A stretch of DNA of 64,000 nucleotides from Sphaerolaimus hirsutus (Eukaryota; Nematoda; Chromadorea; Monhysterida; Sphaerolaimidae): contig OZ038451.1 of NCBI GenBank assembly GCA_964036195.1, positions 7,506,529-7,570,528 of the forward strand. The letters are read 5' to 3'. Positions 10,648 through 64,000 of this stretch are shown here, one piece after another; the first letter of the stretch is position 1, and every line of letters begins with the position of its first letter. The position numbers were made by a program, and so were the translations under genes. The notes under the pieces are model-generated. The model searched no databases. It saw only the letters and a list, made by a program, of their open reading frames with translations, and had not been told where the DNA came from.

Positions 10648-10649
10648 GT

Positions 10650-11576: not shown

Positions 11577-12375
11577 AGTTAGGTTTAATAGTAAAAAAAA
11601 TTGGTGGTTCCTCCTTTAACGTTGAAGCAATAGCTGCACGAACTTTAAATTTCAAGTCCGATCGAGTATTTATCGAAATAACAATGTATCTATAATGAAA
11701 TTTTGAAAAAGCAACTTGTGCAATACTATGAAGGACTCCGCCTAATCCACTGAAATATCGCTTTTGAATTTCAGTTAATATACTAGTGCCTAATGTGGTG
11801 GTTGATAGAAACAAATAATTAGAATTATCAAAAATAGGGGTCAGAGAATTTCGTACGGATGCATTTCCACTAGAACTTTGTAACGTTAAAAAACATGAAA
11901 GTGACTCATGATGACTAATGCGCTCAAAAAGATCTCGTATTGAGACATTCACGCTGTTCGAAGACCTAATAAGTGACGCCATATCTTCGATCAAACATAA
12001 AATATCGTCTGATGTTTTACGGGTTACTGCCCATGCATAATCACTCAATTTCCAGTCTGGATCATATCCTAAATGCTTCTCAAAATGTTGCACGAAGTTT
12101 GCCGTCTCTTTGTGATAGGTTTCAATTGTTTCTTCATCTTGTGAAAATAAAATAACCCCAAGTAAGCTCCTTCCAGGACGAATTTGCTTCCAATTTTTTA
12201 TAAAATCGATAATAGATGTTGTTTTTCCACTGCTACTTGATCCGAGGAAAACAGCAGTAAAATACTTTTTACCATCATTATATAGGCTCATATTTTTTTG
12301 GTAAATAGAAATGCTTTTTGAAGATTTATCTTGTTCATCAAAAAAAACTTTCATTTTATTTAGCTGTTTCTCCAT
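11569..12375 (-). CDS. Polinton genome-packaging ATPase (FtsK-HerA / A32-like)
   Basis: 268 aa from ATG 12375 (MEKQLNKM); the longer upstream reading starts at a non-ATG codon. Walker A is GSSSSGKTTS near residue 45. A Walker B-like hydrophobic strand ending in acidic residues (ILCLIEDM) lies near residue 125, and a conserved polar block (SSGNASVRNSL) near residue 175. Length and motif order match the A32-like ATPases that pump DNA into capsids of Polintons and related viruses. No stop or frameshift interrupts it. It starts 14 nt after the protease stop, suggesting a polycistronic or closely packed late cluster. Confidence 0.85.
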   Translation of the reverse strand: MEKQLNKMKVFFDEQDKSSKSISIYQKNMSLYNDGKKYFTAVFLGSSSSGKTTSIIDFIKNWKQIRPGRSLLGVILFSQDEETIETYHKETANFVQHFEKHLGYDPDWKLSDYAWAVTRKTSDDILCLIEDMASLIRSSNSVNVSIRDLFERISHHESLSCFLTLQSSSGNASVRNSLTPIFDNSNYLFLSTTTLGTSILTEIQKRYFSGLGGVLHSIAQVAFSKFHYRYIVISINTRSDLKFKVRAAIASTLKEEPPIFFTIKPNYA

Positions 12376-12388
12376 TGCAATAATAATT

Positions 12389-12820
12389 TTAATTAGCAAA
12401 TTTGTTCTTTTCGAACCAGCTTTTAACTTTTTGCTCGTTTAAATGCAAATTCGAACTGAATAGTCCCCTTAAATACTCCCAATTTCTGTTTTGAGCATAA
12501 TGAAATACACTAAACAAACAAAAAATAGCACAATCTCGGTTATTAAATGACTGTACTTTATTTTTTAAATAAAATAAATTATTAGAATAAATAGTAAGAA
12601 ATTCAGTTAATTTTGGTATTTCATTAATATTTTCGGCTAAACTATTAAAATATATTACATTAACGGGATTGATTGAATAGTCAATAATACAAACACTAAA
12701 ATGTTTTTTTTAAATAATAAAAAATATATTCAGAGTATTTAAGTCGAGCACAACTCTTTTTGCTATGTCATAAGGAGTATAGATCCCTCGATAGAATTTA
12801 GCTAAATTTGAATTTATCAT
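12389..12820 (-). pseudogene. Polinton adenain-like cysteine protease, broken by an in-frame stop
   Basis: From ATG 12820 the frame runs 144 codons to TAA at 12389, with an internal TAA at 12712-12710 (codon 37). The catalytic His is in KKHFSV at codon 40 and the catalytic Cys in NRDCAIFC at codon 97. A Gln seven residues before the Cys (VQSFNNRDC) matches the oxyanion-hole Gln spacing of adenain. The acidic residue expected in a YFDS-type block is Asn here (YFNSLAE). The family normally matures capsid proteins. With a stop three codons before the active His and D replaced by N, this copy is probably inactive. There is no stop between the last major-capsid exon and this ATG, and both are in one frame, so the usual boundary is lost or read as a fusion. 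Confidence 0.75.
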
Positions 12821-14686
12821 AATCTGATGTAATTTTGAAACTTCCAACAAGCTAGTTTGATGTACGTTTCTATAAAGAAAAAATACAAAGTTTAGATTGA
12901 AACTAAATATGAAAATATAAAAATTTAAAATATAAATTAGTATAAACAGTAACCTGTGCAGGTCAATAGTTAAAATTTCTTGTTGAATACACATACAATA
13001 CATATGGTATGTGGTTGAAATTGGTTTTTTCAATTCAATTTTCACCCTTGTATTACCTAAAAGCATAAAAATATTTATGATATTTTTACTCAAAAATTTT
13101 TTTAAAAATTTGTTACCTGTGTCTGTAGGTACATTAGCGCTTAAATTATTGATACCATGCGCTTGAAAAATGTACGGTATAATAGTAGCATTTACAGCAA
13201 AATCTTTCAATGTTGTAATAGAAGAGACGTTATTATTAAATGCCCCTTGAAGTTCCAAGAATTTTGTGTACATATACTGAATTATCATGGGGTCACTAGA
13301 TTTCCTGGGCATACTAGTTATAAAAGGATTTGTCGGAACTCTGTCTGTAGCTTCAAATGAAGCCTGACTTGACACCACATCAAGGTTTGAGTATTTATGA
13401 GGGTTCTTATTGTATTCACCTCGATCACGATCACTTTGTATGAAAAATACGGCTAAAGCATCTGGGCGAATCCCGCTAACAACTTGTGTATCAATCTGGC
13501 TAATCCCAGGAGACAATGAAATAGGTCCCATTACTCTTAGCCCTAAATTAAAAGGAAGAAAATATATATTGTATTTCTTCAGCAAAATTTTTTAAAAAAT
13601 AACCTTTATATGAGTAGTTAACCACATTTGTCAGACTATATTTTGCAAATATCGCATCAGCTAATTCTGGTTGAAGACTATACCTTTCAATCAGAAGATC
13701 AGTTTCTAGAAATTTAATCTTAGGTGAAATACTAGTATCACTAGTGCATATCATTCTTTGGCTTGATGCCCATCGAATTTCGATGCTTACTTTGATGCCC
13801 GGTACCAGTAACTTTCTATATTGAATAAATTCACTTTTGAAATATCGTTCATTCTAATAAAGTAAATAACACTGACCTTTGAAAAGTAAGTGGCCACAAA
13901 AGTCGTGAAATTGTTTCTTGAGGGATGGATCCGTCCTCATTAAACATAATTTGATGTCGATAAGCAAATCCCGAGTTTAAATCATCTGAAACAAAAACCC
14001 ATTAGTTCCCTCTTTTTAGTAATTCATATTTTTGCAAAACTACCGTTCAAGTCATAATTCCCCGTATCTTTCATATAAAGGCCTGTCTCTTTTTGAAAAT
14101 TCTCTGCAACGAAATTTTTCCATATTTTTTGCAAAATGAAAGCAAAATTAAAACAAAACTCACGTAAATTCTCTTTAGAATGACCAAACGTAGTTGCGAA
14201 ATAACCCAACTGGGAATATGTGCTATCATATCCACACACAATTCTATCCGAAACTTTCACAATCAAATCCGCAATTATTGACTGGGGGAAAGCATTTGCT
14301 ATTGCTACTTTTTTATCAGCTGGTAATTTCTCTCCATTTTCATTCACTAATTGGAATTTTAAATAGAGCAAAAAATTTGGACTAGTGAATAACGTATGGC
14401 TCTGTAAAAAATTATATCAATAAAAATTATTTTTAATTTTTTATTAACACCGTTGAAAAGACAAACCACAGGTATATCAAATGTAACAAAAGTGGGGGTG
14501 GTCACACTTGGTTTTATTGTATAGTCGATTTTTTCACTTATTTCATAAACAATTGGAATTTCAGCAAATAAGTCACATCTGCATTTTTTACTCAATGAAA
14601 GTACATAAAAATAAAACATAAACAAAACGTTTTTACCTGCTATCCAATAAATTAGGGGTTTGCTTAGGAATAATACTGGTATCCAT
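12710..14686 (-). CDS. Polinton major capsid protein (double jelly-roll type), nine exons
   Basis: Exons (minus strand): 14686-14637, 14578-14449, 14401-14164, 14103-14044, 13985-13877, 13815-13604, 13542-13117, 13056-12954 and 12869 to the stop at 12710. All phases fit, giving about 495 codons including a tail that reads into the protease N-terminus. Introns are 35-100 nt and AT-rich. Recognisable blocks are the early-strand region VNENGEKLPADKKVAIANAF, the YSQLGYFATTFGHSKENL helix region, the short ETGLYMKDTG block, and a C-terminal strand ending ILTIDLHRNV, all typical of Polinton capsids. It would form the hexon-like shell. The ATG overlaps the preceding stop as TAATG. The true C-terminus is probably near LHRNV; the rest may be readthrough into the protease. 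Confidence 0.8.
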
Positions 14687-15013
14687 TATTTCTTAAGTTT
14701 ACGCTTTTTAGAATCACTTGTAATTTCAGAAGAAGTATCTGCTGCAGAAAAACTATCTTCAACTGTTTTTGACAAATTAGAATCTTCAGGTTTATATACA
14801 ATGTCGGGTTTGATTTCGCGCTTACGAGGTCTACCTCTTGTTTTAGAAATGTATGAGTCACCCCTGAATGTTATAACATCACGTGAATCAATTTTATCAG
14901 GCTTCATTTGACCGCTCATCATCCCACGCATTGTATGAGCTCCGGCAACATTTTGTCCGTAAATAGTATCAGCTGCATAATTTCTGGAAAATATACACAT
15001 TTAGATGATATAC

Positions 15014-15051
<38 letters not shown>

Positions 15052-15294
15052 TGTTCAGAGTAATCAGTACACAACCTTGCTTGAATCTTTGATATTTCCA
15101 TTTTTGAGTGTCTATACCAAGGAGCCACATGAAGACCAAATTGATCAGCAGGAGAAGCCATCTAGGTTTAAAAAATATAAAACTAAGAAATCGTCCCAAA
15201 GAAAGTTTTCTTGCTCAAAACACACCAAACCAATTAATCCCGGCTGAGATGGTTCGAGAAAGGCAGGATTCAATATAAAATCTTGCTCTGCCAT
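14686..15294 (-). CDS. Small basic Polinton protein, possible core or capsid-associated protein
   Basis: Exons 15294-15226, 15161-15076 and 14983-14686 join in phase to give about 150 aa. The second intron contains a (TA)n run. Exon 2 and the start of exon 3 encode a conserved-looking block (APWYRHSKMEISKIQAR, then NYAADTIYG). The protein then has GRPRKREIK, an acidic/serine stretch and a terminal KKRKLKK that looks like a nuclear localisation or DNA-binding tail. Size and basic character resemble adenovirus-type core proteins, but I do not recognise a specific family. It lies between the minor-capsid candidate (16-nt gap) and the major capsid gene (TAATG overlap), so a virion role is likely by context. 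Confidence 0.65.
15011..15049. repeat. (TA)n microsatellite inside an intron
   Basis: About 17 TA units lie in the second intron of the small basic protein gene. The spurious YIYIYI ORFs here come from this run. Confidence 0.95.
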
Positions 15295-15310
15295 TTTTTA
15301 TATTGTTTAT

Positions 15311-16273
15311 TTAGCTTTCAATAAATTCTAGAATAATATACCCAATAGGCGGCTTTTTATATATAGTTAAACGATTATCAAGTGAGATAGGTTTGCCTAA
15401 TTCTGAAAAAAACTCAAATATAAGAGAATAAAGTGGGAAACACTTAGTGTCTAAAAAACGCACTCCACTTGAAGAAATATAGTCACGGGACTGAAATGCT
15501 ATTATTTTTTCAATTGAAAATAATTCAACATCAGCAGGTTTATTTGTAGAATCTATTTTTGAAATAGTTCCTCTAGTAATTTCACCCTTATTTGGGTTAA
15601 TATACCTTGGTATAATAGCCATTAAGCGCTCATACCCATTATGAACACGCACATTTTCACAAATATTAGAATGTATTTTCAACCAATGAGCGCAATATTC
15701 AACATCGGGGTTTGAAATAGAATAAACCTCGTTGTGCTCAACTTTATACCCCTGCCAGTCAAAAACAATTTCATCTAAAAACCCAAACTTTTGCTTAAGA
15801 ATTGGACTAAAACTGATACCAATACTTAAAGTTCTTTTTAATGGCCGTCTTTCTAATTCTGGAGCCCTCATATAAAAGTGAAAACCTTCTGTGGCCCACG
15901 TAATGTCAAAAAAACATGTGATTTTAGAACTCTCAATACCATTCTGCCAATAAAATTGTCTAAAAGAATTTGTGTTAAAAATAGCATTCATTTGAGTTCT
16001 AAAATCATCCATAGAGAAAACATGATCATTTAAAAAATTAAAAATTTTAACTTCTTGAAAAATACCATTATTATACAACTTTACAACAATAAAAGCATCA
16101 TCACCCTCAATAAGAGAAAAAAATGGAGAAAAATAAAAAATTTTTATTCCAACTTTCCATTGTTTCTCAGTGTTTAAAACAAAAGGTGGTGTTAAATTAA
16201 ATTTGCACACTGAGGCACTATTTTCCCAAGAGCATTTTGAAAGATCTATAATTAGTTCATGATGTTCCGTCAT
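15311..16273 (-). CDS. Polinton minor capsid (penton-like) protein candidate
   Basis: Uninterrupted 320-aa ORF from a true ATG (MTEHHELIIDLS). Beta-rich, with no membrane segment and no enzyme motif. Length, single-exon structure and position between integrase and the major capsid gene fit the single-jelly-roll penton protein of Polintons. Blocks such as WKVGIKIFYFSPFF and a late GVRFLDTKCFPLYSLIFEF are consistent with beta-strand repeats. Its start overlaps the integrase 3' end by 17 nt. The assignment rests mainly on length and gene order, since this family is poorly conserved. Confidence 0.65.
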   Translation of the reverse strand: MTEHHELIIDLSKCSWENSASVCKFNLTPPFVLNTEKQWKVGIKIFYFSPFFSLIEGDDAFIVVKLYNNGIFQEVKIFNFLNDHVFSMDDFRTQMNAIFNTNSFRQFYWQNGIESSKITCFFDITWATEGFHFYMRAPELERRPLKRTLSIGISFSPILKQKFGFLDEIVFDWQGYKVEHNEVYSISNPDVEYCAHWLKIHSNICENVRVHNGYERLMAIIPRYINPNKGEITRGTISKIDSTNKPADVELFSIEKIIAFQSRDYISSSGVRFLDTKCFPLYSLIFEFFSELGKPISLDNRLTIYKKPPIGYIILEFIES

Positions 16274-17441
16274 TGTCCAATAAATCAGATGCTGGTATCA
16301 ATCTGTTTTCTTGAAAATACCCAACCAAATTTAAACCAGATGAAATACTTTTCAATTGATAACTATGTAATGGTTCAGTATCTACAACTTTCACTATGAT
16401 ACAGGGGTCTTTCATATAACGAGACTGCCCTGCTTTTCTAAACTTATCAGCATCGAGGTTTTCCCGAATGTAAACTTTATCCCCAATATGGAACTTTGCA
16501 GGGTAAAAATTCTTTTTCAAGTTGCTTTCGTCCCTCAACTGCTTCGCCACTGCAAAATGCTCTTGTACAATCAAATAATTTGAACGATCCACCTGTAAAA
16601 AGTATTAATTAATCAGGATATAATACATATATATGTATATATATAATATATATGTATATAAAAATACAAAAAATATATTAAAGCTATATAATCACCTCAA
16701 TTGGACTCAAAAACCCCAACGCTGGTCGCTTTTCTTGATTATGGCTAGCAACAATATTCAATATTGCATTTATGAGAGACCCACCGGGGTTTGTCTTTAA
16801 ATACATTGAAGTCCGTAGTCTAATAAATCGAATCATTTTTTCCGCCTAGAAAGTAAACAAAAAATCCATAGTAATCAAAACACTACTCAATCTAAACAAA
16901 CCTGAACAGTCTTATGTTGTGAGTAAACACTCGTAAAACTGTGATGTAACTTCATATTTCTCACCCCCTCATGAAATTTCCCAAGAAATTCTTTACCATT
17001 ATCTGTTAATACTGTATACACCGGTGTACGAAATAGCTCTAAACAAACAATAAATGCGCGAAAAACATTCTTTGAAGTTATAGCCGATAAAGGGGAAACT
17101 GCGGTAAAGCCAGTTAAACACTCAACAGTAATGAGCATATATTTCTGTGTTGCACCTTTTTGGAAATGTGTTAAATACATTATATCAGCGGCAACGGTCC
17201 CTACCGACGGGAAAAGATGTCTTGACGCGATTCCTTTCTTTATTGGTGCCTCTGGTACATATTTATTTGCTAAATATCATTTTTGTTTATTCAACCAACT
17301 CTGCACTTCTGGTAATGTTATTGAATATCCCTTCTCATGCACTACTCTCCATAATTTTCTAGCACTGGAAAATGCACCTGGTTTCCCAGCATTATTCCAT
17401 ATCTGATTTAAAACTTGAGACGTATTAATTTCTTCATCCAT
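16257..17441 (-). CDS. Polinton retroviral-type (RVE) integrase, three exons, one in-frame stop
   Basis: Exons 17441-16902, 16845-16696 and 16592-16257 join in phase 0 to give about 341 codons. The catalytic triad is D86 (VAADIMYL), D147 (VLTDNGKEF) and E182 (QAEKMIRF), with 34 residues between the last two, matching DD35E enzymes. The first intron falls two codons before the catalytic Glu. The C-terminal exon holds a small SH3/chromodomain-like module (FHIGDKVYIREN). A TGA at 17277-17279 (codon 55) interrupts the N-terminal region while the frame remains open on both sides, so this copy is probably non-functional. In Polintons this enzyme inserts the linear element. Confidence 0.88.
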
Positions 17442-48050: not shown

Positions 48051-49235
48051 ACTCTTGATCAGCAGATGGTTATTCTGGTGATGTTTCACAGCAATTTTGA
48101 AAACAAATTTTTAACAAGTGAAATATATGTCAAATTGGTTCTTCTTGATCAGCAGATGTTTACTCTGGTGACGTTTCACAGCAATTTTGAAAAAAAATTT
48201 AAGTGAAATATATGTAAAATTGGTTCTGCTTGATCAGCAGATGATTATTCTGGTGATGTTTCACAGCAATTTTGAAAAAAAAATCAAAAAAGTGAAATAT
48301 ATTAAATATTGGTTCTGCTTGATCAGCAGATGATTATTCTGGTGATGTTTCACAGCAATTTTGAAAAAAAATTTTTTAACAAAAGTGGATTATATGTCAA
48401 ATTGGTTCTGCTTATCAGCAGATGATTATTCTGGTGATGTTTCACAGCAATTTTGAAAAAACATTTTTAACAAAAGTGAATTATACGTCAAATTGGTTCT
48501 GCTTGATCAGCAGATGATTATTCTGGTGATGTTTCACAGCAATTTTGAAAAAAAATTTAACAAAAGTGAAATATATGTCAAATTGGTTCTGCTTGATCAG
48601 CAGATGATTATTCTGGTGATGTTTCACAGCAATTTTGATCAGAACCAATTTGACAAATATTTCAAGATTGCTGTGAAACATCACCAGAATAATCATCTGC
48701 TGATCAAGCAGAACCAATTTGACATATAATCCACTTTTGTTAATAAATTTTTTTTCAAAATTGCTGTGGAACATCACCAGAATAATCATCTGCTGATCAA
48801 GCAGAACCAATTTTACATATATTTCACTTTTGTAAGAATTTTTTTCAAAATTGCTGTGAAACGTCACCAGAATAATCATCTGCTGATCAAGACGAATCAA
48901 TTTGACATATATTTATCTTGTTAAAAAAATTTTCTTCAAAATTGCTGTGAAACATCACCAGAATAACCATCTGCTGATCAAGCAGAACCAATATTTAATA
49001 TATTTCACTTTTTTGATTTTTGTTTCAAAATTGCTGTGAAACATCACCAGAATAATCATCTGCTGATCAAGCAGAACCAAATTTACATATATTTCACTTT
49101 TGTAAGAATTTTTTTCAAAATTGCTGTTAAACATCACCAGAATAACCATCTGCTGATCAAGCAGAACCAATTTTTAATATATTTAATTTTGTTGATTTTT
49201 TTTCAAAATTGCTGTGAAACATCTCCAGAATAACC
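48050..49235. repeat. Central inverted array of GATCAGCAGATGATTATTCTGG units
   Basis: About seven direct units (48050-48640), then about eight inverted units (48640-49235), each some 60-75 bp. Core blocks are GGTTCTGCTTGATCAGCAG and GTGATGTTTCACAGCAATTTTG. It forms the apex of the large hairpin. Confidence 0.9.
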
Positions 49236-50390
49236 TGAGTTTTGGAGTCCATGGCACCACTCTATAAAAATGGCGATATTTTGGAGTCCATGGCACCACT
49301 CCATAAAAATGGCACCATTTTGGAGTCCATGGCACCACCCCATAAAAATAACACTGTTTCGGAGTCCATGGTGCCACTCCATAAAAATGGCACTGTTTCC
49401 GAGTCCATGGCGTCACTCCATAAAAATAGCGCCATTTCAGAGTCCATGGTGCCACTCCATAAAAATGGTGCTGTTTCCGAGTCCATGGTGCCACTCCATA
49501 AAAATGGCGCCATTTCCGAGTCCATGGTGCCACTCCATAAAAATGGCGCCATTTTGGAGTCCATGGTGCCACTCCATAAAAATGGCGCCATTTTTGAGTC
49601 CATGGCGCCACTCCATAAAAATGGCGCCATTTCTGAGTCCATGGCGCCACTCCATAAAAATGGCGCCATTTTGGAGTCCATGGCGCCAGTCCATAAAAAT
49701 GGCGCCATTTCCGAGTCCATGGCGCCACTCCATAAAAATGGCGCCGTTTCCGAGTCCATGGTGCCACGCCATAAAAATGGCGCCATTTTGGAGTCCATGG
49801 CGCCACTCCATAAAAATGGCGCCATTTCTGACTCCATGGCGCCACTCCATAAAAATGGCACCATTTCAGAGTCCATGGCACCACTCCATAAAAATGGCGC
49901 CGTTTTCAAGTCCATGGCGCCACTCCATAAAAATGGCGCCATTTCTGACTCCATGGCGCCACTCCATCAAAATAGCGCTGTTTCCGAGTCCATGGTGCCA
50001 CTCCATAAAAATGGCGCTGTTTCCGAGTCCATGGCGCCAGTCCATAAAAATGGCGCCATTTCCGAGTCCATGGCGCCAGTCCATCAAAATGGCGCCATTT
50101 CCGAGTCCATGGCGCCAGTCCATAAAAATGGCGCCGTTTCCGAGTCCATGGCGCCACTCCATGAAAATGGCGCCATTTTGGAGTCCATGGCGCCACTCCA
50201 TAAAAATGGCGCCATTTTGGAGTCCATGGCGCCACTCCATAAAAATGGCGCCATTTTGGAGTCCATGGCGCCACTCCATAAAAATGGCGCCGTTTCCGAG
50301 TCCATGGCGCCACTCCATAAAAATGGCGCTGTTTCCAAGTCCATGGCGCCACTCCATAAAAATGGCGCTGTTTGGAGCCACTACATGAAA
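49235..50390 (-). repeat. 39-bp tandem array, right arm (about 29 copies)
   Basis: Reverse complement of the left array (GGAGTCCATGGCGCCACTCC ATAAAAATGGCGCCATTTC). ORFs up to 385 codons on both strands are period artefacts. Confidence 0.95.
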
Positions 50391-50801
50391 AAAGCATAAT
50401 TTCCCCACCATTAATGCTATACATAGCAAGTTCTTTGTGTAGTATGCCAGCATCAATATATGAATTTTAACACCTTATAGATACGGTATGATGAGGTGGA
50501 ACAGGTAATAAATAGGAAGTGGAGATACCGACATTCGAGTGAAATTTCACCCGAAACTCGTTATCTCCACTGAATCTGCTGAGGTGATGTCAAAAAACTC
50601 ATCATAACTATGAGTATATATTCCGGCCAGAGGGTTTAAAATATGGAAAATGTAGACAAATTCATAAGCTTTTCAAAAAGTTTTGGGCAAGACTTGTCAC
50701 TTTAAAGTTGCCTGCTCGGGCCAACTTTGAAATTTCAAATGCAATTTTGAAAAAACCCAAAATGATGGACTTAACGACATTCGGAACTAGATGCCTCAAT
50801 T

Positions 50802-52982: not shown

Positions 52983-54477
52983 TATTCATATGCATGTGGA
53001 AATTCAGGTTTTCCAAAAAAATCATCTTGCTCAAAAAATGCATGACCATTGAATTGCAACATAAAACATAGCTCCATTTGTTTGGGGATACCATTATTGA
53101 TTGGATACCATTGAACCAATTGGTATTGATACCATTGAACTGTAGAAAATTTTTGCGGGTATTTTTGGGTATTGAGTTCAGGTTCAAGTGTTGAGTTTTT
53201 GTATCGAATTTGGGTCCGGGTAGTAGAGTCGTGTATGGGTATTGAGTTTCGTTTCCAAAAAATGTGCCGATATCGGGTTGCTCTTGTTCAATACCGTGTG
53301 GCATGACCACAACAACAACAACAAGTTTTATCGATCAGTTCAAATTCGGCACAGCAGGTGTTGGTTATGCTGGATGTCTTTCTTCTTAAAACTCTTAAAA
53401 ATATGCTAAGCTTAGTGTTCATGCTTGGCCAATGCATGTTATGCATAATTTGTGTGTGGCAAATCCGTGTGCGGCAATTATTTCGGTAGGTGTATTGGGT
53501 TACAACATGTATTTTAAAGTACCAACCTAGGGTAGAAGTGCCAACTTCCCAACCCTAGTCTATTTTGAAAAAGAGATTTAAATTTGATGGTTTAATTAGG
53601 TATAATTATAAAGTTTTGACTGCGGTGTTTTAATTACTTCTGGTATTTATGATTAGTTAATTTTAGGTTTTAGTTGTTAAGTTAAGTTGGATTACTGAGT
53701 CGAAATTGTTTAAAGAACTAACAAATTTATATAGCAAATCATGAACGAATCTACCAAAGAAAGGCAGTCAAATTGGATGTGAGAAGTGACATTTCGGACA
53801 TCATGAGCGGTGGCTCAAATGTCCAGGTTGTGAGTCCTTTGCAGCTTCACTTCCATCTACAGGCCTGGTCTTTTTGGTAATTACCTTTTTATCTCATCGA
53901 TGTATTTCTCATTCCAAAAGCAAAACTCCAAGTGACTGCCGTTTTCTGGTAGTCGGCGCAATTAAGTAAAAACCTATTCACATGCAGTATTGCCGAGTAT
54001 ACTGCTGGTGATTACAAAGGTTCTGTGGGCGTGCACGTCTTCAAAATGCCATAACACTCAATCATGTGGAGCGAAAAAGCGTCTCTAAATACTAAATATA
54101 ATGAGACTATCTCCTAGTTTGCGACAAAAGTCTACTGTTTGTGTAATGGTAATGACGTAGATTATAATTAAGAAATTCCTATCTTATATTTGCTACTTAT
54201 AGATAGTGTTTGTGAACTAGTGTTGGGAAAATTAAATAAAATGAAAATTTTAGGGTGTTTGCACTTGTTCAGTGCGCCTATACCCTTACATGCGGCCCCC
54301 TATGCTGTCACAGGTGGCCTCACCTGTCAACTTAAGCACTGTGAATTGTGAATGAGTCTAATAATTACACTACAAGAGAACAGGCGAGATTAACAAATTA
54401 CCAAATTACAAGAAAACTGACAAGCCAATATAGGATGAAGCAATAAGCGAGTATGATCTAAGAATAATGGGATAATG
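52983..54477. other. No gene seen; 3' flank of the retroelement ORF
   Basis: Looking downstream of the polyprotein stop (minus strand), I searched for a polypurine tract and an LTR. Only a short AGGGGG run (about 54294-54300) is present, and no sequence here recurs at 61.6-62.15 kb in direct orientation. A TAGTGTTGGGAAAATT segment near 54220 resembles the host repeat vocabulary and may mark the element edge. Confidence 0.4.
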
Positions 54478-57400
54478 CTAATTTGTGCTAATTTTTAAAG
54501 TTTGATGGGCCTGTAAGCATGCTACTGTATCTTGATTGCTAAATTCTTTGCGAGTGTCTATCAAGTACCAAATGTTGACTACATGTTGTCCAGTTGTATA
54601 AGTATGTTCTAAAATCTTAAAATGCACATTATCTTTTCCATTGATCACTCGAATTGCCATGCCTGGTGGCACTGAAACCTCAATTCCAGTGGTGATCACT
54701 TGTTTTCCTTGTGGCACCAGTACCATGGGGCGCCTCGGCTTGATTTGCAATGTGTTGTTGAAGTGGTTGGTGCACACTGCAAATGTTGTCGATGCCCGTA
54801 CTGCCAGCTGGTGCGGTCTGTTTGGTGTCACAACTGGATGTGTCGTTGGCACCAGTCCCATTGTCCTCTGTCGTGGCTGTTGTTCATTTGCTGTTTCCTG
54901 TGTTTCATGGATTTCTGTTTCATACTCCATGGACCCTCCACTTGGCAGTGGTGTGGCCTTCCATTTTGATGCAGTATGGCCCAGCAATTCACTGTACAAT
55001 GCACCAATTTCATCATTTTCTGGCCTTTTGTTGGCTCTGATCATTCCGATCACTTTCTTTTTGGGGTTCAATCGTAGATTGTAGCGCATTGCCCTTGGCT
55101 GTCCAGTTGGATATTTGGTCAGTACTGGCAATTCTTCATCTTCAGATGCAGATGACTCAAGTCCACCAGTCATCATGAATGGTTTTGATTGTGATGGCAC
55201 ACTTGGATCTGCCTGTTTTCTTGCATTTTCATTTGTTTTCGTGGCATCCTGACTGACATCATTTGGTGGTGCCATAGCGCCAGCCATTTGGTCAGGTTGC
55301 TGGGGTACTTTTTCTTCTTGCTGTACTGCTGGGTCCCCATGTCCAAATGTTGGAAAGACATCTTCCCGTGGATGCCACATTTTGACCAGCATCATTGGAA
55401 ACTTGATACTGGGTGAATCCGGTTCATTCCATTTCTGGAGATACACAGTTTTTGGTGGATCTCCTGTGAGTTTCGTGACCATGTACGGCCCAACCCACAC
55501 ATCTCTTGTTTTTCCAGTTTGGTCTTTGGGAATCGTAAATGACTTCTTGAGCACCAGGCAACCCAAATGGATTTTCTGCGTATCTGCGCACTTCTTGTCA
55601 TGGATTGCCTTGTTGGTGTCATTTTGTTCCTGGTTCTTGGCATTTGTATAAGCCCATATGCGGCGCATATTCACCAGCAATGTATGCATGTATGTGGGAT
55701 ATTGCATCATAGTCTCAAACTGTTTTGGCTTCAAATCTGCAGCCAGTGCTGTTCTTGGCAATTGTCCAAACACGCACATATATGGAGACACTCCAGTGGC
55801 TGAGTGCACTGCCATTCTGTTTGCCATTAGTGCAAAAGGCAACCAGGTGGGCCAGTCATGGTGATCTAGATCACGCATGCACGCTGCCAAGAGCCCTAGC
55901 AAACTGCGGTTGGCTCTTTCCACAATGCCATTGCTTTGTGGGTGAAATGGGGCTGTTGTGATTTTCCGAATTTGGAACAGCTTTGTGATTTCTGTGAATA
56001 CTTCACCTGTGAATGAGGCGTGGCAATCTGATGTCATATATGCTGGCGCGCCATACTTGCAAATCCAGTTTTCTACAAGCATCTGGGCTGCTGTCCTTGC
56101 ATCAGTCCTTTCAACTGCCCAGCCATCTGCCCAACGTGAGCACCTGTCAACCACCAGAAATACATAGCTGTGGCCAGAATAACTGGTTGGCAGTTCTAAA
56201 TGGTCAATGTGGATCCACTCAAAAGGCTGAAGTCTTGGCTGTGTCTCGGGCATAGGCAATCGTGTCTTTGGGACAGGGCAGTTGCGTGTTTGACAGTGTG
56301 TACATGTTTTGATGTAATTGTACACATCTCGTTGCATCTCAGGCCAGTACAGGTGCTGTGCCATTAGTGACAGTACCTTACGCGCATTCAAGTGCCCGCC
56401 GACCACTGTGTCGTGATGTTCTGCCATCATTTGCATACGCAATGTTTTTGGCACAAACACACGCGTACGTTTGGCTTTTTCAGCTGGGTGAGTTGGGTTG
56501 CGCACATAAGCCAGCAAATCTGGGTAGGCAAAATGTGGCCCAAAACACGGTTTTTCGGCTTGTTCCATCTGATGGATAATTCGTTGTGTCTCTTGGTCAT
56601 GTTTCTGGGCTGCTGACAGCCTGTCTCGCCAGTTGTTCAACTGAGCTGGTGTACATTCTCCACTGTCTTGTGGTGAGCGCAGCACTGCCATGACTCTGAT
56701 TGGTGCCACTTCTGGCTCTGTATTTGTAGTTTTTCTGGGTCCTTTGTATGGATCTGGAATTTCTTCCTTGGGCACGTATGGTGGCAGTTTCTTCCACCAT
56801 GGTCTTGGCCTTGGAATTTTGCTGTCATCCAACTCAATCTCCATCGGTGGATTGTCAATTTTGGTCAGCAATTCGCTATCTCGTCCCGTAGGAGCTCTAG
56901 ATAGAGCATCGGCCACCACATTGGTTTTCCCTGGTCTGTGTTTTACGTCCAGATCATATCCTGCCAGTGTCAGACAGATCCTCGTGATATACTGACTATG
57001 GCCTTTTGCGTGCATCAAATATGCTAGTGCCCTGCTGTCAGTGTACACTGTCACTTTCCTGCCCATGCAATAATGTTTGTACTTTTCCAAAATCCATGCC
57101 AATGCTTCTGCTTCTCTGATCATTGCATGAAAGTCATTGCGGTTGTCAGCAACTTGTGTTGATGCAAAGGCAATTGGTCTGATTTCTCCTGTTTCAGGTT
57201 GGCGCTGTTCAAGTACTGCACCATATCCATGTACTGGTGGACAGGCTGCATCAACTGATATAATCAGTTCCAGTTCTGGCCTGTAAAAAGCCAGCACAGG
57301 AGCTGTCACCATGGCTTTCTTGAGTGCTTCAAATGCATTCAATCTCTCTTCTGTCCATTCAAATTCAACACTGTCCTTTGTCAGTTCTACCAATGGCTTT

Positions 57401-60400
57401 GCGATTATTGAATAGTTCTTTATGAATCGCCTGTAAAATCCGCACATTCCGAGGAATGACTTGACACCAGTGCGATTTTGTGGCAGTGGGAAATTTTCAA
57501 TGGTCTTTGTTTTGCTTTCATCTTGCTCAAGTCCATCTCCTGACAATTTGAAGCCGAGAAATATGCATTCTCCAACTCCAAATATGCACTTTTTGGCTTT
57601 GAATTTCAAGCGGTACATTCTGGCACGTTCCAGCACTGCTGTCAGATCTTGCAGGTGCTTTTCAAATGTTGGGGATGCAGTTAACAAATCATCCATGTAA
57701 GCCAGAACACTCTTGTTGATGATGGGCTCAAAAATGGTAGTGATTGCTCTTGCATAAGATGCTGGAGCTGTACTGAGTCCAAATGGCATTCTGGTGAAAT
57801 GGTACAATTGACCATTGGCTACTGCAAATGCCGTCTTTTCTGCATCATCAGGGTGCATTGGCAGCTGCCAATATGCTCCCAAGCAGTCCAGGCTACTGAA
57901 GAACTTTGGGTTCAGTTCAGCAATGCGGTCAAATATTTCTGCCTGGTCTGGTGCTGGAAATGCATCTCCTTCTGTGATGAGATTCAATTCGCGGAAGTCT
58001 TGGCAAAGGCGGTGCGTATTGTCCTTTTTCTTGACCATGACAATCGCAGCACGCCATGGGCTATTTGATTTCACAATCACGCCTGATCTCAACATTGAAT
58101 TCAGTTGTTCCTCAACCACCTCCCTCAAATGTGGTGGTGTTCTTCGCGGAGGCAGCTGGATTGGTCCTTTCTCACCAGTTCTGATTTGGTGATAAATATT
58201 CCCTGTGATTGTGGTCAATTCTCCATAATCTAGTGCAAAACAGTCATGGAACTGCTCCAACAGATTCTTCAATTTCTCTTTTTGTTCATCAGTAAGCTTG
58301 TCGCCAAATTCCCACACTGTCTCCAGTTTCTGCAGTCGTTCTTCCAACTGGTCACCTGTCAGGTGTTGCAGGTCAATTTCATCTGGTTTCTTGCCTGTGT
58401 GTGGTTTCTGCACATGGCTTCTGAATTCTTGATTGACATTGTTGATTGTATCCACATGTGTGGATCTCACTATTTGTGGTGCCAATGGAATTGCTGTGCC
58501 TGCCAGCTCCATGTGACCAATACATGCACCTTTTGGTAGGCATCGATGTTGCAGTGACATGTTGTATATATCAATGCACAGCATGTCATGCCCTCCTGGC
58601 ACTCTGAGGTATGGCAGTGACAATCCGCGAATTTCTTCTGCTGGTTTTGGTATAAACACCAGATTTTGCTGTGGGTCACCTGATGTTAGCCCAGCAATCA
58701 TGACTGAAATTCTCTTTCTGGTGTTGCTTCTGATGAATTCCTGGTTTATCAGCTTAACTGGCCATCTGGCTGCTGGTGGTCCTTCTGTTGAAATTGAATC
58801 ACCTGCTGGTCCAAGTCCAATTTGCCGTGAGCCGACCCACACGCGGCAGGTGGCATAACAGATCGTCAGGCGCCTGAAGCGGCGCAGCAAATCACCTCCC
58901 AGCAATAGTTCGTCATTGAGGTTTTGCGCCACATAGAATTTATGTTGCAAAGATTGTCCTCCAATGATCAGACGCACATAAATTCTTCCTGAGATGACCA
59001 GTGAGTGACCAGTGATTGATACCAGTTTGTCATTTTCTGCTAATGGTATCACTGGTCCCAATCCCAATGCATTGACAATTCTCTCATCAATCAGACTACA
59101 CTGGGCGCCAGAATCTAGCAATGCTGCCAGAGTTGTGTTCGCAATGCTTGTAGCCACATACAATAAATTGTGTTTGTTGACCAGCTTCACTGATTTAGTT
59201 TGATTGATGTGTTTTTCATCATAAGATTGTCCATCGGCAGATTGTTCTGATGATTCTGCCCAGGTTCTATCCACGTCATAATGGATGGTCAATTTCCCAA
59301 CAGGCCTCAATATGTCATTTCCAATGATGGCTTGGTCACTCAATTCATTTGAAATGAACAGTGAATGAGTTCCATGATATCCCATTAACTGAATTTCAGC
59401 AGTTGTTATCCCTTCAATAGGAATTTCGTGGCCTGTGACTGATGTCAGATGTATCTGGGATTTTTCTGGCTCAGGCAGCAAGTCCAATGCGCTTGCTAGC
59501 CCTTTCCCAATTACACTGCATTGGGCTCCAGTGTCTAGTATGGCATTGATTTGGTGCTTGTTGACAAGCATTGTGGTGCTTGGCATGTTCTCACTCTCTT
59601 CAGCCTCTGTGGCTGCAATCATGTTGACTGTTTCTACAGGCCTCAATTCAATGGTTTCGCCATTGATTGTGATGGTTTTTCCTCTTGTCAAAGCGGCAAT
59701 AGGCCGTGGGCGGCGATTTGACCGTGTCACGGCTCCTGAGTTTTCTGTTATTGTTTCAACAGTCACAGTTGCTGTGGTTGGCACTGGTTGATGTTGCGGG
59801 TGTCTGTTTCGGAACCTTTGGACTGCTTGGTAGCACCTTGTTAGTGTGGTTACTTGTTGCCATAACCAGTAACTGAACCTCATTGCCATGTCAAGAGCAT
59901 TGTGTGTCAGTCTTGCTCTTATGGCCAATGGTAGGCAGCATTTCACAGCAATAAAGCACCAGATTGCCATTATTGGAATGACAATCAGACTGATTGCTAT
60001 CTTCAGCCACTTGTGTGAGTTGGCCTCTGTAGCGCCTGTTATCACCATGTTCTGGGCTACAATTCTGGTGTTCTCGTCTGCTGTGTTCCCAGGTTGTAAA
60101 CCAAGGTTTGTCAGCAACTCGTGATGTGTCTGCAGCAAATCGTTGGTATGCGCTTTTATGCCCCATTGTGGATGCTGTTTGTATGGATGCAAGCCAATTG
60201 CTTGGTTTGTTGCTGGCTCCTTTTCATTTTGATGTTGATGAACATATGCCAGGGGGAGCCTTGGCAGGCTTTGAACTTGGTGCAGTTCTCCTGTTTTCGC
60301 AGCATATTTCACCGTGGTGTGGTGAATGTGAAATATCTGATTGTCAACTTCTTGACATGGCACTTCAAAAGTCCATTTGATCACCATCAGGGTTGCTGGG

Positions 60401-61608
60401 TCTAGGAAGAATGGACCATCTTCCATTGCTGCAAACTGAATGGGAATGTGCCTAGTACATTTGTCATCAGTGACATTCATTGGCAAGATGTAATATGTAC
60501 CATTTGCCAGTGGCCTGCAATACCAGACATGTATCACATTGCCGGTTGTTTTGGCAGTGAGATGCTGGTGATCCAAGATCATTTGCAGCGTTTCTGTTGG
60601 GTCAGCTTTTAGTTGGCTAACAGTGACTGCATGAATTGCCTTCATCATTTTGCAGTGATTCACCATCAGAAACTCAAAGTAGAATCTCTGAGCTTGGTCA
60701 GCATGCGGCTGCCTCAAGGTGGCTTGGGCTGCAACTACATCTGACGAGGCTTTTTCTTCAGGCATTATGGTCAAGCCTGTTAGAGATGCAATTGATGTTT
60801 CATTGGTCACCACGGTTTCTACTGCGAAACCTTGGTCACTGATGTAAAGTTGCTGACCACAATCCATTACTTCTTGTGGATTTGTGAATGTCAATGCCAA
60901 TGTGCCCCCTTCTGCAATCCACTGTCTTTGTAAACTGATCCCTGGGGCTGTTTTCCATGCTTCATATTGGCATTCCACAGTGGTGTTGGCTTGCCACATC
61001 AAAAGTTGATGATCTGGCAATGCACATTGGTTTTCAATGTAGCGGCACTTAGAAACATCAGTTCCTAACGTGGACCACATTTGTTTTCTGTCTGATCTCT
61101 GGTAAACGGTTGTCTGTTGCAGCGCACATTGTGTCACAATGTGGCTGATTGTTTTGCAGCATCTGAATGCTCCATGAGTTGGTAGTTCTGGTGCTGGGTA
61201 CCATGTTCGGTACTGGCCTTTTCCCGATCTTTCCATGTCATTTGCTTTCATGCATTGCTGGTAATCGATCATTCTTTTGCATTCTATTGCTGACACTTCC
61301 ACAGGTATGTACGTCACATCTTTATATGAGGTATATAAAAATGTTGTGTACTTTGTGTGATTTTCTTTCCACTTTGTGCACACATATGCTTTTGTCACAT
61401 GCTGGTATGTGTTTTTGCGATAAAGTTTCAATGTCAGATGACGCGGTGCTGCAAACTCTGCCGTAGATGAGAAGTGGCAGTTGATGTCTGGTGGTATCGC
61501 ATAGCTGACTGTTGGTGATTGGTCCACAGGGCACACCATTGGGTCCATGGCACGGGCCCAATGAGTGCTGATCAGGAAGGCTAGTGTTGTCAGGAAACAT
61601 GATGCCAT
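54478..61608 (-). CDS. Retroelement polyprotein: glycoprotein-like ectodomain, two retropepsins, RT, RNase H, integrase, dUTPase-like tail
   Basis: One intact 2,376-aa ORF from a true ATG at 61608; an acceptor-like AATCAG lies just upstream, so it may be spliced. Residues 1-20 are a signal peptide. About 21-530 is a Cys-rich ectodomain with several N-x-T/S sites, and 535-555 a transmembrane helix. Two aspartic-protease-like domains follow: DTGA at 692 with IIGND at 761, and DSGA at 832 with LLGGD at 902. RT carries LDCLGAYWQL (D1241) and YMDD (1304-1307). RNase H has D1453, an EAE block near 1500, D1524 and D1567. Integrase has an HHCC zinc module (H1731/H1739, C1769/C1772), the triad D1802, D1861, E1897 (35 between) and GPY near 2040. 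Residues about 2285-2376 resemble a dUTPase lacking clear catalytic motifs. RT/IN features place it in Ty3/gypsy. No Gag or zinc knuckle is present. The ectodomain's viral family is not recognised. Confidence 0.9.
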   Translation of the reverse strand: MASCFLTTLAFLISTHWARAMDPMVCPVDQSPTVSYAIPPDINCHFSSTAEFAAPRHLTLKLYRKNTYQHVTKAYVCTKWKENHTKYTTFLYTSYKDVTYIPVEVSAIECKRMIDYQQCMKANDMERSGKGQYRTWYPAPELPTHGAFRCCKTISHIVTQCALQQTTVYQRSDRKQMWSTLGTDVSKCRYIENQCALPDHQLLMWQANTTVECQYEAWKTAPGISLQRQWIAEGGTLALTFTNPQEVMDCGQQLYISDQGFAVETVVTNETSIASLTGLTIMPEEKASSDVVAAQATLRQPHADQAQRFYFEFLMVNHCKMMKAIHAVTVSQLKADPTETLQMILDHQHLTAKTTGNVIHVWYCRPLANGTYYILPMNVTDDKCTRHIPIQFAAMEDGPFFLDPATLMVIKWTFEVPCQEVDNQIFHIHHTTVKYAAKTGELHQVQSLPRLPLAYVHQHQNEKEPATNQAIGLHPYKQHPQWGIKAHTNDLLQTHHELLTNLGLQPGNTADENTRIVAQNMVITGATEANSHKWLKIAISLIVIPIMAIWCFIAVKCCLPLAIRARLTHNALDMAMRFSYWLWQQVTTLTRCYQAVQRFRNRHPQHQPVPTTATVTVETITENSGAVTRSNRRPRPIAALTRGKTITINGETIELRPVETVNMIAATEAEESENMPSTTMLVNKHQINAILDTGAQCSVIGKGLASALDLLPEPEKSQIHLTSVTGHEIPIEGITTAEIQLMGYHGTHSLFISNELSDQAIIGNDILRPVGKLTIHYDVDRTWAESSEQSADGQSYDEKHINQTKSVKLVNKHNLLYVATSIANTTLAALLDSGAQCSLIDERIVNALGLGPVIPLAENDKLVSITGHSLVISGRIYVRLIIGGQSLQHKFYVAQNLNDELLLGGDLLRRFRRLTICYATCRVWVGSRQIGLGPAGDSISTEGPPAARWPVKLINQEFIRSNTRKRISVMIAGLTSGDPQQNLVFIPKPAEEIRGLSLPYLRVPGGHDMLCIDIYNMSLQHRCLPKGACIGHMELAGTAIPLAPQIVRSTHVDTINNVNQEFRSHVQKPHTGKKPDEIDLQHLTGDQLEERLQKLETVWEFGDKLTDEQKEKLKNLLEQFHDCFALDYGELTTITGNIYHQIRTGEKGPIQLPPRRTPPHLREVVEEQLNSMLRSGVIVKSNSPWRAAIVMVKKKDNTHRLCQDFRELNLITEGDAFPAPDQAEIFDRIAELNPKFFSSLDCLGAYWQLPMHPDDAEKTAFAVANGQLYHFTRMPFGLSTAPASYARAITTIFEPIINKSVLAYMDDLLTASPTFEKHLQDLTAVLERARMYRLKFKAKKCIFGVGECIFLGFKLSGDGLEQDESKTKTIENFPLPQNRTGVKSFLGMCGFYRRFIKNYSIIAKPLVELTKDSVEFEWTEERLNAFEALKKAMVTAPVLAFYRPELELIISVDAACPPVHGYGAVLEQRQPETGEIRPIAFASTQVADNRNDFHAMIREAEALAWILEKYKHYCMGRKVTVYTDSRALAYLMHAKGHSQYITRICLTLAGYDLDVKHRPGKTNVVADALSRAPTGRDSELLTKIDNPPMEIELDDSKIPRPRPWWKKLPPYVPKEEIPDPYKGPRKTTNTEPEVAPIRVMAVLRSPQDSGECTPAQLNNWRDRLSAAQKHDQETQRIIHQMEQAEKPCFGPHFAYPDLLAYVRNPTHPAEKAKRTRVFVPKTLRMQMMAEHHDTVVGGHLNARKVLSLMAQHLYWPEMQRDVYNYIKTCTHCQTRNCPVPKTRLPMPETQPRLQPFEWIHIDHLELPTSYSGHSYVFLVVDRCSRWADGWAVERTDARTAAQMLVENWICKYGAPAYMTSDCHASFTGEVFTEITKLFQIRKITTAPFHPQSNGIVERANRSLLGLLAACMRDLDHHDWPTWLPFALMANRMAVHSATGVSPYMCVFGQLPRTALAADLKPKQFETMMQYPTYMHTLLVNMRRIWAYTNAKNQEQNDTNKAIHDKKCADTQKIHLGCLVLKKSFTIPKDQTGKTRDVWVGPYMVTKLTGDPPKTVYLQKWNEPDSPSIKFPMMLVKMWHPREDVFPTFGHGDPAVQQEEKVPQQPDQMAGAMAPPNDVSQDATKTNENARKQADPSVPSQSKPFMMTGGLESSASEDEELPVLTKYPTGQPRAMRYNLRLNPKKKVIGMIRANKRPENDEIGALYSELLGHTASKWKATPLPSGGSMEYETEIHETQETANEQQPRQRTMGLVPTTHPVVTPNRPHQLAVRASTTFAVCTNHFNNTLQIKPRRPMVLVPQGKQVITTGIEVSVPPGMAIRVINGKDNVHFKILEHTYTTGQHVVNIWYLIDTRKEFSNQDTVACLQAHQTLKISTN

Positions 61609-62157
61609 TTCGAAGCCTGCGACGACTGATTTACGAAATGATGATAGAAAAAGTTCAATAATAAAGTTTAAGACTCATGGCGAGTCCTGGTAAAGTTACC
61701 ATTACACAATCATGATTAAGTGATACAGATTTATAATTTTATTACATTTATTATATTAAGTCTACATAATAAGTAAAAAGTTATTGTATACCCATTTAAG
61801 CTATAAGTTCCTAAATTAAGTTGGTAAAATATACCTAAAATAACATTACGTACTAGCTAAATGTGCAGCTAAATGTGCTAATCACAGTATATAAAGAATA
61901 TTTAAGTGGTTACTAATGAAGGAATTATAGTAAGAATAGATTTCAGTTGATTTTTGTTTGAATTGTAAAGATATTTAAAAATTTTATTTTGATTGTTTGA
62001 TCAAGTGAAGTCTATTCTAAAGAATCACATTGGATCATTACTTAGAAATTTAAATCTTTGGCCGGACAAAACTGAGGAGAAATTAGAGAGGATATAAAAG
62101 TATTAAATAATATTTATGAATAATATTTCTCCCAGTTTTGTGTATGCACTATTGTGC
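61609..62157. other. Intergenic region between helicase and polyprotein, with a hairpin
   Basis: 549 nt of AT-rich DNA with no ORF. At 62066-62085 and 62121-62142 an imperfect inverted repeat (ACAAAACTGAGGAGAAAT / ATTTCTCCCAGTTTTGT) forms a stem 17-25 nt after the helicase stop. It could stabilise or terminate that transcript. No LTR-like duplicate of the 54-kb side and no convincing tRNA primer site were found. Confidence 0.5.
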
Positions 62158-64000
62158 CTACTGGCCAGTTTCTTGGTTGTTTAATTCGAAAAAGTCAATT
62201 GGATTCTCTGCAGCCACACACAATGACAGGTCATCCTTGCCCAACAATGCCTTGGCTTCAGCCACTCTGTCCTTTGTCATGATGAATGCTCCAGTTCTTG
62301 CCACTTGTTCAAACAGTTGCTTCCATCCCCTTGCAGTCTTTGTCAATGTGAACATTGGTTTGAAGTCCGTGATGATCACAATGGATCGTCTCTGTCTTGT
62401 CAGTGCCACGCACAAGCGCATCATGTTTGTCAGGTGTGTCAATTGGCTGTATTTGGTATTCATTGTCCATCCTGGGACCAGAATGATGTCTGATTCTTGA
62501 GACCCCTGCGCAATGTCACATGTGGTCACTCTGTAGTCCAGATTTGGCATGCCCTCCTGGCTGTGGTGCTTGGCCAGCAGGCAACATCCATCTTGGAGGT
62601 CCGACTGCAGTTCTTTGTAATATGCCAGGATCCTGGTCTCAGCCACACCATCCCAGCCAGCGGCCTTGTACCATTCGCTCATGAAAGTGACAAACTGGTC
62701 CCTGGTGCGGTCACAGCGTCTGGTCACTTTGTTTCCATCAGTTGTCTGTACAACCACATCCTCTGTGTTCACATCGAGCCAGTAGATGGGTGCCAGGTAC
62801 TGCTTTGTGCCATCTGGCCTTCTCTTGAACAGCAGTGGGAAACCTGGTGGCTTGGCTGCCAGGAATTCTGCTCTGGTCTGGTATTCAATGGGTGCCTCCA
62901 GGTGCCCATTATAAATCAAATATTTCACCAGGCCTGCATGTTCTACTGAGGCCCGGTACACTTCCTTCAGTCTGAAGCGCCTTCTTCTGCCCACAATTGA
63001 GCTCACTCTCTCCAGGCCACTTTCATTGAAAACTGATTCCATCACTCTTCTGATTGGAGTCTGCCCCAAATTTGGCTTGCCAAGTTGATATTCATCGCCC
63101 AGTAGCAGGACAATGAAGCGCCTGCTGACCCTGTCGTCACTGGTGCTCAACAAAGTCAGAAGTGCACACAGCTGCAGTTTGGTGATTTTTGTGGACTCGT
63201 CCACAACCAGCATTGAAAATCTGCATTCTCTGAGTTTGCTCAATGCCGTGCTGGTGGTTGCACTGACAATCTGGTACTGGTTGTGCAGTGTTCTGTCCAG
63301 TGTGGCAGTCTCTTCTTCTTTTTCATCTTTGTGTTTTTTTATTCCTGCTATCCATTCTGGTGGAACTGCCTCACCTCTGTGCAGCCTGCACCCTGTGGGC
63401 ATTTTGCCTTTGCGGCCCTGTTCCTGCTGTTCCATTTTGCGAGAGGTTGCCTTCAATCGGGCATGCAACCATGGGACACTGCCTGACCTGATCCATGCAT
63501 CCAGGTCATCAGCTAACCGCTCCACTGCCTCATTATCTGTGGCTGTGATCAGAACCTTGGTGGCATATGGTTCTTGCCAGTGTCTGTGGAGGCCAGCTGC
63601 CAGGTGCTCCTGTATGGCCTGTATGGCCACTCTGGACTTGCCTGCACCAGCCGGGGCTCTGACTGTGATGCAGTTGACATTCACTCTCAATGCCTGTAGC
63701 ACTTCGTACTGTTTTTGATTCATGCCTTCAGGTCTTTCTGTTGGATAGTCATATTGTGTCTGGTCAATGTTGGTTGCCACAATTTGGTTGATTTCTCTCA
63801 AGCGATTTGGCAGCAACACTTTCATGATGGTCAACTCTGCCGCTGTCTTCCATGGGTTCATCAGTGCATACACTATATATGTGTATGTTTGCTTGTCTTG
63901 AGCATCATCTATTCTGTTGTCTGTTCTGATGCAAACTTCACTTTGGTCCATTTCGATGTGCTTTTTGAGGTACTGAAGGGCAGTTTTGGCCAGCACTGCC
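62158..64000 (-). CDS. Upf1-like SF1 helicase, 5' end beyond the window
   Basis: The frame is open to the right window edge; the apparent start at 63996 is a GTG, so at least 612 residues are the C-terminal part of a longer protein. SF1 motifs in order: Q-like MNQKQYEVLQAL, motif I APAGAGKS, Ia VLITATDNEAVERL, Ic SATTSTAL, II VVDEST, III LLGDEYQL, IV-region VYRAS, V TCDIAQGSQESDIILV, VI CVALTRQRRSIVI. Motifs V and VI are the Upf1/Smubp type, which act on RNA or DNA 5' to 3'. All look intact. It is on the same strand as the polyprotein, with similarly balanced base composition, unlike the AT-rich Polinton. It could be a first ORF of the same retroelement, or a neighbouring element or host gene. 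Stop is TAG at 62160-62158. Confidence 0.85.
   Translation of the reverse strand, partial: AVLAKTALQYLKKHIEMDQSEVCIRTDNRIDDAQDKQTYTYIVYALMNPWKTAAELTIMKVLLPNRLREINQIVATNIDQTQYDYPTERPEGMNQKQYEVLQALRVNVNCITVRAPAGAGKSRVAIQAIQEHLAAGLHRHWQEPYATKVLITATDNEAVERLADDLDAWIRSGSVPWLHARLKATSRKMEQQEQGRKGKMPTGCRLHRGEAVPPEWIAGIKKHKDEKEEETATLDRTLHNQYQIVSATTSTALSKLRECRFSMLVVDESTKITKLQLCALLTLLSTSDDRVSRRFIVLLLGDEYQLGKPNLGQTPIRRVMESVFNESGLERVSSIVGRRRRFRLKEVYRASVEHAGLVKYLIYNGHLEAPIEYQTRAEFLAAKPPGFPLLFKRRPDGTKQYLAPIYWLDVNTEDVVVQTTDGNKVTRRCDRTRDQFVTFMSEWYKAAGWDGVAETRILAYYKELQSDLQDGCCLLAKHHSQEGMPNLDYRVTTCDIAQGSQESDIILVPGWTMNTKYSQLTHLTNMMRLCVALTRQRRSIVIITDFKPMFTLTKTARGWKQLFEQVARTGAFIMTKDRVAEAKALLGKDDLSLCVAAENPIDFFELNNQETGQ

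Follow-up and report, generated by a model that had tools for sequence, protein, structure and literature searches.

The giant gypsy-like Burro elements of planarians exceed 20 kb, start with gag and have an env with a mononegavirus-like fusion glycoprotein in frame before the protease, reverse transcriptase, RNase H and integrase domains (PR-RT-RH-IN), all within one giant polyprotein that also includes host-like domains of the apoptosis and ubiquitin types (PMC6431247); section 7 of that paper names neither a helicase nor an antisense gene. Superfamily 1 (SF1) helicases derived from those of plus-strand RNA viruses are described in insects, mostly in long interspersed nuclear elements (LINEs; TRAS and Jockey) and also fused to proteins of long terminal repeat (LTR) elements in Diptera and Hymenoptera (PMC5563155, PMC6338049). 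Three further reports describe Anakin, a BEL/Pao element with a chuvirus glycoprotein, for which the main text mentions no helicase (PMC7642597); plant Retand, with conserved open reading frames (ORFs) antisense to gag and pol that lie between pol and the 3' LTR, and no mention of introns in the main text (PMC11963269); and rotifer elements with extra ORFs (PMC5408684). Here we analysed a 64,000-nucleotide stretch of the nematode Sphaerolaimus hirsutus (C2:7506529-7570528, hereafter the window) within its genome (348 Mb, 762 contigs). The window contains part of a Ty3/gypsy element, and the best joint explanation, which we consider probable, is that this is a giant retrovirus-like element of about 21.6 kb with its own helicase, which may aid its replication complex.

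As in Burro, the element belongs to Ty3/gypsy, is longer than 20 kb, begins with gag, has its glycoprotein in frame upstream of PR-RT (the Pfam glycoprotein match being partial), and shows extra host-like domains, among them a very weakly ubiquitin-like one. It differs in having three sense ORFs, with gag, helicase and env-pol separate, a UPF1-like helicase gene of its own and apparently intron-split antisense genes, and no BIR, BCL2 or ankyrin domain was detected by Pfam, so that it was not filed as Burro. With the insect elements it shares the uptake of an SF1 RNA helicase with its motifs kept, whereas here the plus-strand RNA-virus helicase model stayed below its cut-off, UPF1/IGHMBP2-type models matched, and the helicase is a separate ORF between gag and env-pol. 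Like Anakin, it is an LTR element that took up a glycoprotein of the mononega/jingchu type, although in Ty3/gypsy and not in BEL/Pao. Conserved antisense frames and an over-long internal region are shared with Retand, but here the antisense genes lie between the 5' LTR and gag, are apparently split by introns, and one is Ly6/uPAR-like. A literature search, a weak negative given its poor coverage of subscription journals and Repbase, returned neither an LTR element whose UPF1-like helicase has an ORF of its own nor one with spliced antisense genes; the element belongs with the known giant env-bearing Ty3/gypsy elements, for which the literature searched describes neither of these two features.

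The earlier note, made from the letters of the window, had proposed that an intact UPF1-like helicase frame and the retroelement beside it form a single element in the order helicase, glycoprotein, Pol, and this was borne out by shared LTRs and by the genome-wide copies described below. The window copy, of 21.6 kb in total, is arranged as 5' LTR, long leader (~6.8 kb), gag, helicase, glycoprotein-PR-PR-RT-RH-IN and 3' LTR. Its 3' LTR (53513..54290, minus strand; 778 bp, TG...AAA) and its 5' LTR (778 bp at C2:7580830-7581607, equivalent to window positions 74302-75079 and ~10.3 kb beyond the window end) were identical, with 0 mismatches over 778 bp, and both had the 5-bp target duplication ATACA at their outer side, one copy just outside the 3' LTR and the other beyond the window. 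The Gag and 5' LTR sought beyond position 64,000 were both found, gag being an ORF of 569 aa ~170 nt directly upstream of the helicase ORF and matching Pfam Retrotrans_gag (PF03732, 8.7e-9; PF19259 was under its cut-off). The TG start of the LTRs, the short target duplication, this Gag and the PR-RT-RH-IN order are those of Ty3/gypsy.

The 613 C-terminal helicase codons and the stop occupy 62158..64000 (minus strand), the frame being open over 62158-63999 and continuing past the window end; the whole ORF, with ~541 N-terminal codons outside the window and its N-terminal limit at C2:7572150 in the adjoining genome sequence, is intact and encodes 1154 aa. The distance of 549 nt on the same strand given in the earlier note was confirmed between the helicase stop and the first ATG (61608) of the 2398-aa glycoprotein-Pol ORF, and no LTR was found in 61609-62157, a stretch that includes the gap between both ORFs (61675..62157, minus strand), where a sequence resembling a splice acceptor, CTCTCTAATTTCTCCTCAG, was read by eye and may act as such. 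The LTRs with their target duplication surround all three of gag, helicase and Pol. The similar base composition claimed for both frames held only roughly, with an overall GC content of 0.49 in the helicase and 0.455 in the polyprotein, and of 0.55 vs 0.43 at third codon positions. A purine-rich tract, AGGGGGCCGCA, adjoins the 3' LTR (54291..54305, minus strand), with a presumed role suggested by its position, and a tRNA scan of the window revealed no primer tRNA.

No common repeat had appeared in the first-read flanks of the window copy because the 5' LTR lies several kilobases upstream of gag; a comparison of both flanks across seven copies placed it 8.7 kb upstream of gag in one copy. LTRs with 5-bp duplications were present in six of the seven copies examined. 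The five besides the window copy had the duplications CAAAA, GCGAG, GAAAT, GGACA and CATAA; four showed 0-2 mismatches between their LTRs, and in the fifth, on C16, the 5' LTR lacked the usual end and the LTR pair was 99.9% alike over 722 bp. For the seventh copy (C9:7136250, subfamily C), no LTR was found within the stretches fetched.

Searches of the genome, which scored the best candidates so that all copy counts are lower bounds, returned 144 matches for the reverse transcriptase (RT), 73 for the helicase, 64 for the end of the glycoprotein and 65 for gag. An earlier assembly into loci used 40/144 RT, 57/73 helicase and 57/64 glycoprotein matches. The assembly including gag used 34/144 RT matches (87-100% identity, minus three partial ones, RTs below 87% being left out), 38/64 glycoprotein matches (those of 24-28% and small pieces excluded), 55/73 helicase and 59/65 gag matches (extra pieces of the same loci excluded), and 39/39 matches of an antisense Ly6 exon. 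Gag, helicase, glycoprotein and RT stood in one order and on one strand in at least 28 of the 34 loci with a close RT, and the adjacency of helicase and Pol was thereby extended to other copies. These 28 complete loci were distributed among four subfamilies (A, n = 16, which includes the window copy; B, n = 5; C, n = 4; D, n = 3). The remaining six had no helicase within reach and were mostly partial or broken: at C1:27307957 the glycoprotein was matched only in part; two loci at C4:28.04-28.06 Mb both had stop codons; of two facing loci at C13:9.25 Mb, one combined a split RT with an almost complete glycoprotein match, and the other had only RT pieces; and on C393 the gag, helicase and glycoprotein were on the same strand but 23 kb distant. 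Further partial loci consisted of gag and part of the glycoprotein (n = 4), helicase and antisense Ly6 exon (n = 3), or gag and helicase only (C652). A separate group of loci, probably non-autonomous derivatives, combined gag at 85-89% with a remnant of the helicase P-loop and no Env-Pol match (C1:27471016, C6:20810423, C7:25542708, C15:17190063 and about ten more).

The helicase was present in all four subfamilies, at 38-100% amino acid identity to the window copy. Between subfamilies A (window copy) and B, the RT piece was 93% identical, with synonymous divergence (dS) of ~1.5 and a nonsynonymous to synonymous ratio (dN/dS) of 0.034, while the helicase was 59% identical, with dS of ~2.2 and dN/dS of 0.14. 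Between A and C (the C9 copy), identities were 90% for RT and 49% for the helicase, and dS was saturated in both. Since dS is high in both, the alignments indicate that helicase and RT have diverged together over a long time, and that the helicase is under purifying selection, yet changes faster than RT. A recent exchange of helicases between lineages was considered as an explanation for the lower helicase identity and rejected, as the synonymous divergence of RT is high too. In subfamily D, the helicase was split by two inserts of ~275 nt each, at equal positions in seven loci (e.g. C9:25821375-25823759); on reading, those of one copy could be either introns or insertions.

The alternative that the helicase comes from an unrelated host gene or from a separate element, and happens to lie beside the window copy, has to be weighed against these results. 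It would draw on the fact that helicases are unusual in Ty3/gypsy, and on six loci where the helicase stands alone, which together with seven loci of gag alone run contrary to a fixed linkage. Four of the six have full-length ORFs (C1:22914289, C6:25969148, C13:691831 and C551:25839; 47-48% identity, 1128-1183 aa), without an adjoining gag or glycoprotein match or an RT of at least 87%, and possibly represent another carrier or a solo gene; at one solitary helicase the 801 bases at the expected place of RT were non-coding. Other points weigh against the element-borne helicase or its proposed role. The roughly 14 derived loci mentioned above, with gag at 85-89% and a helicase remnant only, show that the element can do without a helicase in cis; the helicase match of subfamily D (RT 88%) is reduced to 38-51% in three pieces and may be spliced or broken there; family models give the helicase domain its UPF1/IGHMBP2-like label only weakly; and a profile search of PDB gave Aquarius (E = 0.045) and SEN1 (E = 0.12) as best matches, together with unrelated proteins. 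The single order in at least 28 loci, the identical LTRs and target duplication that enclose the helicase, and its co-divergence with RT nevertheless refute an independent neighbour, which is left with a negligible probability, and the helicase is almost certainly borne by the element as the second sense gene of one Ty3/gypsy unit. An RT family at 41% identity was tried as a carrier of the helicase and discarded: the one copy read (C1:444510) had a zinc knuckle, RNase H and integrase by Pfam and no helicase or glycoprotein, and its first 1333 aa were without a Pfam match.

Pfam matches of the helicase over the cut-off were AAA_30 (1e-10), AAA_12 (4e-10), AAA_11 (7e-8) and also AAA_19, whereas the NCBIfam IGHMBP2-family model TIGR00376 (2e-10) reached 39.9 bits against an equivalog cut-off of 348.9 bits, which indicates, at the level of profile scores, a distant relative and not an IGHMBP2. 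The plus-strand RNA-virus model PF01443 gave 19.3 bits for the window copy and 16.8 bits in subfamily B, against a cut-off of 21. In the alignment of subfamilies A, B and C, the stretches taken to be SF1 motifs I-VI were unchanged or almost so; they included motif I PAGxGK, the glutamate of motif II and motif III LLGD..QL, with VYRA..EHA, TTCDIAQGSQ and RLCxALTRQ as further invariant stretches. The AAA_11 and AAA_12 domains together with motifs I-VI are those of UPF1/IGHMBP2-like SF1 helicases, to which the protein would belong, as the earlier note had supposed, and for which ATP-driven 5'-3' unwinding would be predicted. Its N-terminal half had no Pfam match at 0.1, a sequence search of PDB and the viral contigs searched gave no match, and a set of 5.8 billion proteins, queried with the helicase and glycoprotein parts, gave none at 1e-3, one of these searches being blind to proteins of full ORF length. 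Recent capture of a host UPF1 or Aquarius gene was dismissed, as the partial host-gene pieces L001-L007, putatively of such genes by their motifs, reached no better than E = 0.003 over 72 aa.

Regarding its role, sense RNA from the LTR would yield Gag, and the helicase and the third ORF (ORF3) would be translated from spliced mRNAs, the acceptor-like sequence preceding ORF3. The helicase may then act in trans as an RNA helicase of the replication complex, unwinding the very long, structured genomic RNA and any duplex with antisense transcripts of the element itself, which would improve packaging and the processivity of reverse transcription. That it serves the copying or packaging of a very long RNA is a proposal we advance tentatively, at somewhat below even chances; in plus-strand RNA viruses the presence of a helicase correlates with genome size (PMC3715407). 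A rather less probable role is suppression of host RNA interference, or of nonsense-mediated decay acting on a long RNA with several genes, since the leader (6.8 kb in the window copy and up to 8.7 kb) and the three ORFs in succession would be a natural target for decay. The faster divergence of the helicase relative to RT would fit such a host-facing protein, and weak silencing suppression by insect retrotransposon SF1 helicases is reported from a plant assay (PMC6338049), but the motifs for full catalysis are retained and the overall dN/dS of 0.14 indicates strong constraint and no arms race. Action on DNA, by strand displacement during plus-strand cDNA synthesis or as an aid to integration, in the manner of an SF1B DNA helicase, appears unlikely: AAA_30 and AAA_19 match besides AAA_11/12, and UPF1/IGHMBP2 enzymes act on RNA and DNA alike, but RTs mostly displace strands unaided.

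The leader between the 5' LTR and gag contained no long sense ORF, and short conserved frames (seven blocks) were observed on its opposite strand. Some formed a putative three-exon Ly6/uPAR-like gene (L009:8236-8899 and L043:6541-7198, plus strand), whose exon set matched Pfam QVR at 0.001-0.002, under the cut-off, and has a hydrophobic end; a second putative antisense gene had at least four exons (L043:3612-6020, plus strand), one of them ubiquitin-like at a very weak 0.14. The GT...AG splice sites of the antisense genes, read by eye, were conserved between subfamilies A and B. For four exons from the seven blocks, dN/dS in the antisense frame was 0.06, 0.10, 0.16 and 0.28, and the frame was free of stops. 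Four of the other five frames of those exons gave 0.84-14.6, and the fifth, the sense frame with shared codon positions, gave 0.16-0.42 but had 1-9 stops; the margin was small for the last Ly6 exon (0.10 antisense vs 0.16 sense). In the genome, 38 of the 39 matches of the Ly6 exon were opposite to and 5' of gag/helicase loci of the element lineage, none was on the same strand, and one was alone; 41 of the 43 matches of the second-gene exon were likewise placed, as compared by eye, and two were alone. Both exons were found at 22 of the 28 complete loci, and neither in four subfamily C and two subfamily D loci.

These patterns of conservation suggest that the leader apparently holds intron-split antisense genes. 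Being antisense to the genomic RNA, their introns would, from the rules of splicing, stay unspliced in it and hence survive reverse transcription. A wider view of the element as ambisense, with a Ly6/uPAR-like membrane protein and the product of the gene with at least four exons transcribed from the integrated DNA, and with a helicase evolved to dissolve sense-antisense duplexes so that packaging and copying of the RNA proceed and RNA silencing is not triggered, is speculative and in our judgement improbable as a whole.

ORF3 (54478..61674, minus strand; 2398 aa stop to stop) encodes, all on that strand, a glycoprotein part (59944..61608), two tandem aspartic proteases (DTGA and DSGA, 58873..59574) and, by Pfam, an RT with YMDD (57544..58035), an RNase H (56956..57357) and an integrase with an H2C2 zinc domain and rve core (55939..56454). 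A dUTPase suspected on first impression at the ORF3 end had no such Pfam match. Glycoprotein residues 323-460 partially matched Pfam PF24664 (Monjiviricetes_fusion, 8e-10), and the first 600 residues of ORF3 (first Met at 61608), which start with a signal-like hydrophobic stretch, contained 20 cysteines, five sequons and one strong transmembrane stretch by hydropathy (559-577). Because of the signal-like and single transmembrane stretches, the glycoprotein may enter the secretory path, and Pol, if ORF3 is one chain, would form its cytosolic tail. A second family in the same genome (C14:16163421, C6:9335729 and 15 further matches) has glycoproteins 24-25% like that of the element, in ORFs mostly of 2162-2178 aa and with near-equal match scores.

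Elsewhere in the window, an AT-rich block of converging ORFs (5935-16297), seven of them without a Pfam match at 0.01, resembles by its motifs a family B DNA polymerase, a packaging-type ATPase and a capsid protein, and may be what is left of a Maverick/Polinton or adintovirus-like element after decay. Repeats of ~90 nt in both orientations make large inverted repeats at 48053-49208, and a 39-nt unit forms a tandem array with several open frames at 49123-50475.

The element widens the known content of giant virus-like LTR elements. Its signal-Env-transmembrane-Pol polyprotein suggests a route by which Pol could be delivered via Env, not Gag, and by keeping split genes in antisense a retroelement could carry genes together with their introns undamaged. 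RNA stability, packaging and the processivity of RT are considered to set an upper bound on the size of retroelement RNA; an element of 21.6 kb that encodes a helicase would be a natural case in which to ask whether such an enzyme removes the bound, as has been discussed in connection with large RNA viruses.
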